From positions 8,122,001 through 8,186,000 of the forward strand of contig NC_060023.1 in assembly GCF_021134715.1 (NCBI RefSeq): a stretch of DNA of 64,000 nt, in the 5' to 3' direction. The notes under the pieces are model-generated. The model was not told the origin of the DNA. It did no database searches and saw nothing but the letters and a program-made list of their open reading frames with translations. Positions 17,168-24,060 of the stretch are shown here, piece by piece. The translations under genes were made by a program, and so were the position numbers. Origin of the DNA: Daphnia pulex (Eukaryota; Arthropoda; Branchiopoda; Diplostraca; Daphniidae). Numbering within the stretch: the first letter of the stretch is position 1; each line of letters starts with the position of its first letter.

Positions 17168-18249
17168 ATGCCAACTTCAACTGGTATAAATCGTAACTAG
17201 CTTTATTTATTTCATTAAATCAACTTTCTAGGACAATGATTTTTACACTTTTACTTTTTTAAATAGGAAATATGCATCCTAGTAATGAAGAGTGTGGGAT
17301 TCGGGAAGTCTGGGCTCACAATTTGGAAGACGAATTTAGACATATACGCCAGATTGTACAAGCATACAATTATGTAGCCATGGATACTGAGTTCCCAGGA
17401 GTAGTTGCCCGTCCCATCGGTGAATTTCGCAGCCCTGCTGATTACCAATACCAGCTTTTAAAGTGTAATGTAGATCTTCTGAAAATCATACAACTGGGCT
17501 TGAGTTTCCTGAACAAAGACGGCAAAACACCTTCTGGGTACACTACCTGGCAATTCAATTTCAAGTTTAATCTTGGGTAAGGTTTCTAAACCAAATTATT
17601 TCTCATCTGAAGACTATAAATCTTAATCTTTGTTTAATAGGGAAGATATGTATGCACAGGACAGTATAGAACTGCTCCAGAACTCTGGTCTCCAATTCAA
17701 AAAACATGAAGAAGAAGGCATAGACCCATTAGATTTTGCTGAGCTGATGATGACTTCTGGGATTGTTTTGATGGATAACATCAAGTGGTTGTCATTCCAC
17801 AGTGGATATGACTTTGGCTATATGTTGAAAATGTTGACTAACCACCACCTACCTCAGGAGGAGAGTGAGTTCTTTGAGCTCCTGAGGATTTACTTTCCTA
17901 CCATCTATGATGTCAAGTATCTCATGAAGAGTTGCAAAAACCTAAAAGGTGGTTTGCAAGAAGTAGCCGACCAACTAGAACTTGAGAGAATCGGTCCCCA
18001 ACATCAGGCTGGTTCAGATTCCTTACTAACAGGAATGGCATTCTTCAAAATGAGAGAGGTATAATGGCATTAATTTTTTTCAATTCATTACGGTTAATTA
18101 ACTTTCATTTTTACGCTTCGTTCTAGTTGTTCTTTGAGGATAACATTGACGATGCCAAATACTGCGGTCACCTTTACGGATTAGGCAATTCTTTTGTGGT
18201 CAACGGTAACAGCTTCCACGACAATGGCGATGCCACTAATTCGTCTTAA
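17168..18249 (+). CDS. CNOT7: CCR4-NOT deadenylase subunit CNOT7/8 (Pop2/Caf1)
   Basis: Four coding exons (17168-17183, 17267-17576, 17641-18058, 18127-18249) encode 288 residues, matching the family length of about 285. It is a DEDD-type 3'-5' exoribonuclease: the catalytic acidic residues are seen in MDTEFPG (Asp, Glu), in HSGYDFGY (Asp) and in GSDSLLTG (Asp). The long conserved stretch DVKYLMKSCKNLKGG and the ending DDAKYCGHLYGLG are typical. The enzyme shortens mRNA poly(A) tails within the CCR4-NOT complex in cytoplasm and nucleus. The start ATG sits in a 16-nt first coding exon (MPTST plus a split codon), as in the family's MPAAT-type start. Its 3' end converges on the CIP2A-like gene: only 200 bp separate the stop codons. 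Confidence 0.97.
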
Positions 18250-18448
18250 GCGATATCTCACAAACACACTTCATTAGTTTTTTTAATTTTTAAACCGAGA
18301 AACCATTCTTTGCGCGGAATGATTCTACTATTCAGAGCAGAATTATTCAAACACACAAAATTGTAATGAAGATATCTCTGTATTTCAGACGTTGCAAAAA
18401 AGGTTCCACCAATACAGACCTGTGTATTTCTATTACTAAAATTGTTCA

Positions 18449-21400
18449 TTATTTGTTATCCTCGAAGAGTTTGTTCTTGCCTGAAGACAAATCATAGATA
18501 AATTCTTGAATTTTCTCTAGCTTAGTGAGTTTCTTCTTGGTCTCTTGACACGATTTCTCAGATTCGATAAGTCGAGCCTCCAAATCTTCACGCACCATTT
18601 CGGATTTTTTGATTGCCTAGAAAGCACATGGAAATTTTCAATTAAATAACCCCGATAGTCCGATCCCGATATCTTCTTTAGTTGAACATTTTACCTGATT
18701 CATAGAGATGATTTCTCTATCCTTTTCTTCATTTTCTTTCTCTTTCTTACGAAGCGACTTTACAAGGTTATCACTGTTAGTCTTGATCTCTTGGAACTCA
18801 TTTGACAGTTTGTCTAAATCTTTCGATTTTTTCTCGTATGCCAGCTTTGCAGCTACAAATTAAAGATAAAAATAATTGGCATTAATCTCTATAGAAAAAA
18901 ATTCTATGCACATCTATGTTATTACCTTCCAAGGATTTTTGCGATTTCTTAAGTTCTTCTTCCATATCTTCACCTTTCTGAACAAGATTTCTAATTTGTT
19001 TCAAGGCCCCATCGAGCTGGGATTGGATCTGATTCGTTTTTTCAGTCTGCGCCACTTCAAATTTATCCTTTTCCCTTTGCAATCTCTCACGCTCCTAATG
19101 AATACATTCAAAGGTTTGTTGGTTAATTTTTTTTCCTGCTTAAATGTGTGTGTAGGTTTACTCTTGTCCAGTCATGCTGATTGGCTCGTTGCGTATCGGT
19201 CATTTTTTCAAGACGCCTCGAAATAGCTCGGTTCTCCGACTCTTTGCTTTCAATGAGTTGAGTTTTGCTGAGGAGCATAGCCATTATCCGTTCATTCTAA
19301 AATGTAAAACAAAAATAATAAAACGAGGGAAGATGTCATATTTTGAAATCCTGATTTACCTCAGCTCCAATTTGAATGATATTTATTTTTAATGAATCGA
19401 CTTCTTGTTTATACGAATCCAGCTGGTGTAGCAATCGAAGTTCTTCCCGCTCTCGTCGTGCAATTTGTAACTCCATCAATTCAACCACGTCGCAATTTTT
19501 CATCGTCTGAATTCATAATTTTTTTTTTAGATATCATACAAGCATGTACCAAACTTAAGCAGATTTTATTACCTCCCAAAATTTGTCGTGTTTCATGTCT
19601 TGTGTGATTTTGTCCAGTTTCTTTATTTGTTCAGGAGACATGGTCACGTTCAAAATTGAACGGTTTACCAATGGATCCTTCTCATCGGTAACGCTGCCAC
19701 GTCGGGAGTACAACTGATCCATAGCATACGACAGACCAGCTAAGCTGTTAAAATATCGTTAAAATCATTTCAATAATAGAACTGTTGTCTCAAATTAAAT
19801 TTACCTTTCGCGATTAAACCCTACTGTACCAATAAGAGCTAAAGCGTCTTGTTTGAGGTGACAGTCACCAAGTACGATTGCAGATGCTAGGCACTGTTGC
19901 ACATTAGGTTTTGTCAGCAAATCACTGTAAATTGGTAGTTGGTCTCTTTCTCGGAAAGCAATATCTCCGAACAGTGTAAGACACTGGACAACAATGATTC
20001 TAGATTCTGGAGAATAACGTGAAACAACGGCAGGATTGGGGATGAGGGTCAAGTCGGAGTTCTTCTGGTCCACTTCTTCGCCGAAATCCGTAAAAACGGA
20101 AACGATTTTGACAAAGGTTTCCGGTTTGAGCATCGATGCAACCCGGATGTTGGAAGGTTGAACTTTGTAAAGCTGTGCAAAATTGAATCAACAAGTTAAG
20201 GAAATAATGTTCAGTATTACAATTATGTGTAAATAATCTTAATATGTATAAAATTTTTGAAAAGGATATTTTTTAGAATCTGCAAGGCATGTCCAAGAAT
20301 TTTGCAAGATGTCTTGCAGGCAGGATTCTTAAAATCGTTCAGTTGATTCACAACTAGACGATCGAGGCTTTCTTCGTTTAAGTTAAGGCTCGGTGTGATG
20401 TTTGTTAAATCAGCCAAAAGTTCAAGTAAATTTTCGTTGAGGGCGGCGTTCGTAAGAAGTGGAACGAGGGCCGGGATAAAGGCTTCGGTGAACTCCTTGT
20501 TGACAACAAGCTGAGTACGGAGTATTTTTGTTGTGTAGAACAAAATGCAGTTGGCTGCATCACTGGCATGTTGAGATGAAGTAAGCAATTTTGGAACAAG
20601 CTTGAACAAGCCTTCCAAAGAACTCTGTAGTAGCTGTTGGAAACGATTTGCTTTCAGCAGATCAAGGATTAGGCGATCACGTGTCATCCACAGTAAAATA
20701 CAGCAACTTCGCTTGATCATTTTGGTGTTACTACTCTTGAAGCCGACTGTGAGTGTGTCTAGTACTGTTTTTAAGTAATTGGTCAGCATTAATTCACTGA
20801 TTGAACCTATTGCCAGAGAGCTAAAGAAAACCTAAAACAAATAAACATTAAACAATCATCAATTATATCTTATTTTGAAATAATTTTACTGAAAGATTAT
20901 TACCTGAGATGCATACAGTTGAAGCAAAAGGTTATCTGCTTGCAATTGGACAAGGTATTGGTGCAAGTCTTCAGAACGATTTGTCCTTTGCAATTCATTG
21001 ACCACAACATAGTTTTCAAAGCATAAATTGGATAAAACAGCAAGCAGATGAGGTAGTGTGTAGTCTGATTTCTCCAAGATAGCACTAGTAAGATATTTTA
21101 AAATATTGCTAAGCCAGTACCCTGATCGGTCTACAATTATTCCATCAGTTAATGTCTCTAGCAAAGAGAGCAATAAGACAGCTTTATCAGATTCCAATTG
21201 CCCTTGAAGATAGTGGGAGAGAACTGGAACAAATTGAAATTGACAAAGAAGCTCACAAATAGAAGAATTTGAACTCAAATGTTTGACCATATCTATTCCC
21301 TTCCACCCCAAATTAGATTTGTTGTCGCATGTTCTTAAAAGCTCTCTAACATTGATAAAAAATTCTGTAGTATATCCTTGGGGAGTATCAAAAAGTGTAA

Positions 21401-21590
21401 GGTTTTCCATAAGACACAAAACCTAAATAACAAAAATAAATGAAAATGTAATACTTTTTCCTATCCAAATCATTGAAGCAGTTACCTGAAGGCACCTTTG
21501 AATTTCGGATTCATGTCTTTCACTCTTCGATCGGATGTAATCAGGAACTAAGGTAATAAAATTTTGAATTGTACGGTTTTTCGAAGACAT
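18449..21590 (-). CDS. CIP2A: CIP2A-like protein (ARM-type N-terminus, coiled-coil C-terminus)
   Basis: Ten coding exons give about 834 residues (human CIP2A has 905): 21590-21486, 21422-20904, 20831-20270, 20174-19805, 19744-19573, 19506-19360, 19296-19162, 19094-18926, 18852-18695, 18616-18449. The first ~560 residues are helical armadillo-like repeats (for example LLAVLSNLCFENYVVVNEL, ASAIVLGDCHLKQDALALIG); the C-terminal ~270 residues are a continuous Glu/Lys-rich coiled coil ending in LSSGK, as in CIP2A. In vertebrates CIP2A inhibits PP2A and works with TOPBP1 in mitotic DNA-damage tethering; the same role here is inference. All frames close with GT-AG introns except intron 3, which is AT-AC (separate entry). 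Assignment rests on architecture, length and the tail motif rather than alignment; another ARM/coiled-coil family remains possible. Confidence 0.75.
20175..20269 (-). other. U12-type AT-AC intron in the CIP2A-like gene
   Basis: Read on the minus strand, this 95-nt intron begins with ATATCCTTTT, the canonical U12 (minor spliceosome) 5' splice site. It contains TTCCTTAAC (20195-20203), a perfect match to the U12 branch-site consensus, about 21 nt before the end, and terminates in GCAC. There is no GT donor before the frame hits a stop. Joining at AC restores the frame into KLYKVQPSNIR, whereas the AG two bases later shifts it out of frame. Confidence 0.88.
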
Positions 21591-22082: not shown

Positions 22083-24060
22083 TTAATCCGATTCAACAAG
22101 AATATTCGTGGCAGATGAGGTTGAAGCTTCTTCTGAATCCCTTTTCCGGGAGTCTCTGCTTTTTTTAAATTTAGAATTCTTGTCCCCTTTCCTCCTTTTC
22201 CACTCGATATCAGCCTCGATTTCGCGATCGGCTTCTTCAGGACTAAGCCCTTTCTCTATCAATTTCTTCCTCTTATTGATTCTTTTCTTTTCACCAAAAT
22301 CTTGCTCGTCCAAGTTGATTTCCTGCTCTCTTTTCGTTACAGCCACTTGCGTTAAGATTTTGACAACTTCTTTTTCTGTCGAGTATAAAATAAAATTTTT
22401 AAGATGTTACTTCTTCGACTTAAAAATAAATTTCAGCAAATCCATACCTTTAATCTTGAACTCTTTAAGCTCTTTACAAATGCGCCCTTCAATAGCATGG
22501 AGCAGTTTGATATCGTTGGGGGTGATTAACGTCAGTGAAAAACCTCCTCTACCGGCACGAGCAGTACGACCGACGCGATGCACGTATTCTTTGGGGTTTG
22601 AAGGAACATTGTGATTGACGATAAGCTGAACCGTGGGAATATCCAGTCCTGAAACATTCAAGAGTGTTTACAAGCTCGTGTTAAAAGAGAAGTGAAAGTA
22701 TTTACCTCGGCTGGCTACGTCGGTAGCCACAAGAATTTTGACGGTATTCGAACGGAATTTTGTCAATGTAGCTATCCGTTCGCGTTGACTCATCATGGAA
22801 TGTAGGCACAAACTCTGAAAGCCCAGTTCCAGTAAAGTCATGCTCAAAATTTGGCAACTCCTTTATAATCAGAGAAATAGATTGGTGTTCTATTTTAGAT
22901 ATCACTTGGGTTGTTAAAGAAAATGTTATATCACCTGCATGTGTCTGTAAAAACTATAATGGATCCTTTGGGTTTCTCTTCTCGGAAGTTTTGGACAACG
23001 TGAACCAGGTATCCATCCTTGAAATCCGCTGGTACGAGAATATACCTTTGATCCAGCTCTTCCACTGTCGCAGTTTCAACCGGGGCCGACCACATGAATG
23101 GCTATTAGAACATGACGCATATTTTTAGTGATGCAACGACTAACGCTCTAAGAAATATACTGAAGATTTTACTTACTTTATTTAATGCGACTTCGCGAAG
23201 TTTGTTCAGTGTATCTGTTATGGTGGCGCTAAAGAGTAATGTTTGTCTTTTTTCTGGTAAGGATTGAAAGATGATCTGCAACTGTACCCAAGATTTATGA
23301 ATCAGTAATTGCTGGTACTTAAAAAGAGTGTGTAATTCTTTTCACAACCTGCTCATCAAAGTTCCCTTCCAGTAACCTGTCAGCTTCATCCATCACTAAA
23401 TATTTAATAGTTTTAAAAGAAAATGTTTTGCAGCTTTCCAAGTGATCTGCTAGTCTTTATCAGAGAAAATGCTAAATGAAGCCAAAAGGAACTGTAGTAG
23501 AATGAATAAAAAATTACCTGCCAGGTGTGGCAATGACTATGTGAGGATGATTTGAAAGTTCTATGCCTTGATCCATCATTCCCATGCCACCCACAATTAC
23601 TGACATTCGTAAATTGATTGGCTTCCCGATGATCTGAAATTGATCTGCAATCTACAAAATATTTGGCATTGATAGTGTTGTGATAGCAAAAGTAATGAAA
23701 ATAATGTAGCCTACTTGATACGCCAACTCTCTTGTTGGAGTCAGAACTAGAGCGTAGATGCCATAAGGATCTTTGCTCAGCGTTTGAACTATGGGTAAGG
23801 CGAAAGCAAACGTTTTGCCACTTCCAGTTCGATCACATCCGATACAATCACGTCCATCTAATATAGCAGGTATGCAATTGATTTGTACTGGAGTAGGTTT
23901 GTCAACACCTGTCATTTAAAAAAATTTAAGTGGAAACAATCATTGATTGAGGAAATACATTTAACAGATGAGAATTACCTAAATTTTTGATTTGCTTTAT
24001 CAACCATTCGTCAATTTTCAAGGAATTGAAGGTAGAAACTGCTTTCGTCGTCGTATCCAT
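22083..24060 (-). CDS. DDX49: DEAD-box RNA helicase DDX49 (Dbp8-type)
   Basis: Multi-exon gene from ATG at 24060 to the stop at 22083. Helicase motifs appear in order: Q motif (KPTPVQ), motif I (DRTGSGKT), [26 protein letters not shown] in [12 protein letters not shown] in [29 protein letters not shown] and [11 protein letters not shown]. The basic C-terminal tail ([19 protein letters not shown] and Lys/Arg-rich residues after it) matches the DDX49 arrangement. The family works in the nucleolus in 40S ribosome and rRNA maturation, unwinding RNA with ATP. Odd point: the first position of motif I is Asp where DEAD-box proteins nearly always have Ala ([10 protein letters not shown] rather than GCAKTGSGKT); the Walker lysine is intact. 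Introns are short GT-AG ones, for example after DTC and before SCQIL. Confidence 0.95.

Follow-up and report, generated by a model that had tools for sequence, protein, structure and literature searches.

The locus described here raises the question of whether a protein-coding gene of Daphnia pulex contains an AT-AC intron that is removed by the minor spliceosome. In a study from 2014, BLAST had returned no match for the U12 snRNP protein in the genomes then available for Daphnia, and its authors raised the possibility that the minor spliceosome is absent from D. pulex (PMC4202315). A 2023 survey describes a pronounced loss of minor introns in the ancestor of Pancrustacea; it also names Daphnia pulicaria among the species compared for minor introns, so minor introns in Daphnia are not new in themselves (PMC10639083). 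The question has also been raised of whether Daphnia, known for intron gain, gains U12 introns too (PMC2831892), and the present locus provides a concrete test case. The window analyzed is a stretch of 64,000 nt (NC_060023.1, positions 8,122,001-8,186,000), and the coordinates below refer to it. As judged from the sequence, positions 20269-20175 on the minus strand very probably form a functional U12-type AT-AC intron, in a Daphnia gene whose product is predicted to have a helical-repeat N-terminal half and a coiled-coil C-terminal half. The features are as follows:

18449..21590, minus strand: coding region, 10 exons, 834 aa
20270..20831, minus strand: exon 3 of the CIP2A-like gene (predicted gene model)
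20175..20269, minus strand: predicted AT-AC U12-type intron (third of the gene), length 95 nt, phase 1, following residue 395
20260..20269, minus strand: 5' splice site ATATCCTTTT, a 10-mer unique in the window on both strands
20195..20203, minus strand: branch site TTCCTTAAC, exact match
20175..20178, minus strand: 3' splice site GCAC; the following exon starts with AG (A/AG = Lys396)
19805..20174, minus strand: exon 4 of the CIP2A-like gene (predicted gene model)
20173..20351, minus strand: rival GT-AG intron, donor gtt/GTGAAT, acceptor CACAG, in frame, protein 28 aa shorter

An earlier note on this DNA had placed a minor-spliceosome AT-AC intron here, and its coordinates and letters were found to be exact: on the minus strand the intron starts with ATATCCTTTT, carries TTCCTTAAC at 20203-20195, and ends in GCAC. 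The start agrees exactly with ATATCCTT, the 5' splice site criterion for a U12-type AT-AC intron. The consensus of U12-type branch sites is TTCCTTRAY, and TTCCTTAAC matches it without a mismatch. The branch-point A of U12-type introns usually lies about 10-20 nt from the 3' end of the intron; here the distance is 21 nt, which is long for that range. The intron is in phase 1, in line with the bias of minor introns away from phase 0, which is a bias and no requirement (PMC10639083).

Taken singly, these motifs are about as frequent as chance predicts or somewhat commoner, and it is their combination that is rare. On both strands of the window, the donor 9-mer ATATCCTTT was seen once (0.98 expected) and the branch motif TTCCTTAAC four times (0.77 expected). 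When the motifs were required in order, with an intron length of 50-500 nt, the exact triad of ATATCCTTT, TTCCTTAAC and a terminal AC occurred once, compared with a Markov expectation of 0.0016 per window, and was absent from 60 dinucleotide shuffles of the window. Allowing one mismatch per motif yielded about 1.2 triads per window in the shuffles, so that only the exact triad is informative. A scan of the window that tolerated one mismatch per motif revealed no minor-type intron with GT-AG ends.

The reading frame also bears on the position of the intron. Ending it at the AC of 20175 gives an intact frame of 834 aa with the junction ILK/KLYKV, whereas the AG at 20173, two bases further on, causes a frameshift; from the ATATCC donor, no AC or AG nearer than 20175 maintains the frame. 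The statement of the earlier note that only the AC restores the frame is correct with respect to that AG, but it is too strict in general: among the 12 ends listed for the ATATCC donor, three others are open, and all of them alter the junction residues, either by adding some (AT at 20187) or by removing some (AG at 20163 and AC at 20157). Similarly, the frame was said to have no GT donor before a stop. This holds for read-through past the donor, which reaches a TAA after 44 nt with neither GT nor GC before it; however, in-frame alternatives with upstream donors exist. An in-frame GT-AG structure had itself been named as an observation that would speak against the intron. When the donor was allowed to lie as far as 200 nt upstream and the acceptor as far as 120 nt inside exon 4, 37 in-frame GT/GC-AG combinations were found. 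Coding sequence is lost in all of the 25 of these 37 that were listed, and the best donor match among those 25 is a tie at 4/8 between the donor at 20351 and a GC donor at 20317. Of the in-frame GT-AG alternatives, the one leading from donor 20351 to acceptor 20173 is the most plausible; it costs 28 residues. The remaining eight introns of the gene are all GT-AG and 60-78 nt long.

Comparison with related proteins supports the junction. The closest proteins to that of the window are from Daphnia, with 66-67% identity, and two relatives were recovered: P0001 from D. carinata (832 aa) and P0002 from D. sinensis (GHT06_010551, 804 aa). In each protein search, the roughly 8,000 candidates with the most words in common with the query were scored, and no relative from outside Daphnia was found among them. 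Residues 1-395 as the query gave no match under length limits that leave out full-length relatives, and 54 pattern matches in viral contigs included no relative. At the protein level, P0001, whose record carries the label LOW QUALITY PROTEIN, aligns without a gap over the predicted junction (LQILQ/KLYKV, compared with LQILK/KLYKV in the window). Over the 28 residues adjacent to the junction, the window protein and that of D. carinata agree at 23/28 positions, the corresponding figures being 548/834 overall and 110/187 in exon 3; of 806 windows of 28 residues along the protein, 83 match or exceed this value. P0002, in turn, is without exactly those 28 residues that GT-AG splicing from 20351 to 20173 would remove. 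The simplest reading of these proteins is that the 28 residues are real, that all three Daphnia would have a non-GT-AG intron at this position, and that gene prediction imposed GT-AG ends on the D. sinensis model. Other Daphnia species probably have the AT-AC intron as well, and the great age suggested for it in the earlier note would extend, within this comparison, across Daphnia species.

Among the points against the AT-AC reading are the 21-nt distance from the branch site to the intron end, the low-quality label of the D. carinata record and the existence of in-frame GT-AG alternatives, one of which matches the D. sinensis protein. If this alternative were the real intron, it would be of the U2 type, with donor 20351 and acceptor 20173, and the AT-AC motifs would be coincidental. 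Such an intron maintains the frame and accounts for the residues missing from P0002; nevertheless, we regard it as very unlikely. The sequence that it discards is more similar to D. carinata than the protein is on average and is present in P0001, its donor tt/GTGAAT agrees with consensus at 4/8 positions while the eight GT donors of the gene agree at 4-7 (seven of them at 6 or 7), and a coincidence of motifs is difficult to reconcile with the rarity of the exact triad. Removal of the AT-AC intron by the major (U2) spliceosome is the least probable explanation. Some AT-AC introns are indeed of the U2 type, but those of sodium channel genes have G at +5 (PMC2831892), whereas the window intron has CC at +5/+6, and its branch site agrees exactly with the U12 type.

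A U12-type AT-AC intron is also compatible with an additional GT-AG splice at the same site. In such a twintron, which includes the AT-AC reading, the minor (AT-AC) and major (GT-AG) spliceosomes would compete and produce proteins differing by 28 residues. The two pairs of sites are nested and in frame, the D. sinensis record corresponds to the short form, and a precedent is known from Drosophila prospero, in which AT-AC U12 sites are nested with an in-frame U2 GT-AG intron and the difference amounts to 29 residues; both splices of prospero are described as used (PMC3564746), whereas the GT-AG pair of the window is a candidate only. In a twintron conserved in Daphnia, AT-AC splicing would yield the full protein and GT-AG splicing (20351-20173) a natural isoform shorter by 28 residues in the repeat domain; the form of the protein would then depend on the balance between the two spliceosomes. 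We consider this unlikely. The rival GT belongs to a conserved valine codon, and no selection on splicing is needed to explain why both species have it; the GT donor is weak; and the short form is what gene finders restricted to GT-AG would be expected to produce.

For the preferred reading, a U12-type AT-AC intron, the components of the minor spliceosome were searched for in the window's own assembly (133.2 Mb, 13 contigs). U12 (100.9 bits), U11 (82.1 bits) and U6atac (71.4 bits) were all found above the Rfam gathering cut-offs, and U4atac was found in two copies (60.8 and 56.8 bits), both above the Rfam cut-off. The two U4atac copies, on contigs C12 (L002) and C9 (L003), differ at 10 of 117 positions. 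The snRNA genes are presumably active. Base pairing is possible between the donor ATATCCTTTT and two snRNAs of this same genome, at nt 2-11 in the 5' part of U11 and at AAAGGA of U6atac; the branch site TTCCTTAAC can likewise form 7 base pairs with UAAGGAA of the genome's U12. U11 and U12 would recognise ATATCCTTTT and TTCCTTAAC, U11 would give way to U6atac at the donor, and A/AG would be joined by the minor spliceosome to form Lys396; the order of these recognition and exchange steps follows general knowledge of the minor spliceosome. The AT-AC intron is presumably spliced in vivo.

Protein components were found with differing clarity. The gene of U11/U12-25K is clear (L020, C3:11228761-11229033), with a Pfam score of 111 bits and an E-value of 1.7e-29 to chain 8r7n_B. 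The PDCD7 (59K) model gave 26.8 bits for a single match and 34.7 bits with neighbouring matches, the cut-off being 27, and a comparison of the PDCD7-like frame with the PDB gave no convincing match. Two matches to the zf-U11-48K finger model (L006 and L007, both on C8) are in genes with tandem CHHC zinc fingers, which we take to be of the GTSF1 type rather than U11-48K. A genome search with the CCDC84/CENATAC model, run without a positive control giving signal, returned no match. AT-AC (A-type) minor introns of human are CENATAC-dependent (PMC8280824), and the window intron shares their AT-AC subtype.

Three gene families, prohibitin-2, syntaxin-6-like and KCMF1, were used as controls because AT-AC introns are listed there for both fly and human (PMC2831892). 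The prohibitin-2 gene (L012, C5 around 7468483-7468728) contains an AT-AC intron of 351 nt in phase 0, with 12 nt from the branch A to the end. Its removal is needed for the frame, and the spliced product aligns without gaps over the junction to the prohibitin-2 of 8rrh. It shares with the window intron the donor ATATCCTTTT, the branch site TTCCTTAAC and the terminal AC, and differs in length (351 vs 95 nt), phase (0 vs 1) and branch-to-end distance (12 vs 21 nt). The listing of prohibitin-2 in fly and human applies at the gene level (PMC2831892), while the window intron was compared within Daphnia. At the syntaxin-6-like locus an AT-AC intron was looked for and none was found; for KCMF1, seven zf-Di19 matches were examined without locating the gene. 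Across loci L006-L020, up to two branch-site mismatches gave 15 listed AT-AC candidates, of which the one in L012 alone had both donor and branch site exact; across loci L021-L029, one mismatch in each gave two candidates, both of them inexact and both outside the syntaxin locus. The suggestion that retention of the intron marks an unusual dependency of this gene on minor splicing finds no support here, since the same genome has at least one other AT-AC intron, that of prohibitin-2.

The proposal of a U12-type AT-AC intron in this gene is strongly supported by its motifs, the frame, the congeneric proteins and the components of the minor spliceosome. An AT-AC intron in a protein conserved in Daphnia, a second in prohibitin-2, four minor snRNAs and a 25K gene argue against the proposal of 2014 that the minor spliceosome may be missing from D. 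pulex. As a separate matter of annotation, the D. sinensis record P0002 misses 28 conserved residues beside the AT-AC intron, most likely because gene prediction admitted no introns other than GT-AG, which led to an erroneous model. This suggests that GT-AG-only gene finding can drop conserved residues unnoticed.

The identity of the gene is less clear. It had been called CIP2A-like, and a structure that we take to be human CIP2A (5ufl) was indeed the sole PDB sequence below E 0.1, but its E-value was 0.066. Against the CIP2A fragment, the window protein reached 19.6 bits, and the highest score among 300 shuffles was 7.1, whereas the D. carinata and D. sinensis proteins did not score appreciably (1.2 and 2.6 bits only), and a PDB profile search with the three Daphnia proteins gave three matches up to E 10, CIP2A not being among them. 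An hhalign comparison with the fragment returned a probability of 20.6 and a P-value of 0.0011 over residues 14-200. In Pfam, the single entry obtained was CENP-F_leu_zip (E 0.0018), a coiled-coil match below the cut-off. An AlphaFold2 model based on two Daphnia proteins, of low confidence (mean pLDDT 53), has short helices followed by long helices from residue 554. With this low-confidence model, Foldseek and VIA-align retrieved generic armadillo proteins, and 5ufl was absent among the 50 matches listed by each. The likeness to CIP2A consists of a weak, collinear N-terminal similarity and, as the low-confidence model would have it, a common plan of a helical N-terminal half and a long, coiled-coil-like C-terminal half. 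The label is a weak assignment, plausible and unproven. A literature search, with supplementary tables such as minor-intron catalogues lying outside its scope, found no paper joining CIP2A to a minor intron or the minor spliceosome, or KIAA1524 to U12, and a search on arthropod or Drosophila orthologs of CIP2A found no paper either.

Two neighbours of the gene were labelled by reading the sequence: that at 17500-18250 on the plus strand looks like a CCR4-NOT deadenylase of the CAF1/CNOT7 type, and that at about 22100-24060 on the minus strand looks like a DEAD-box helicase.
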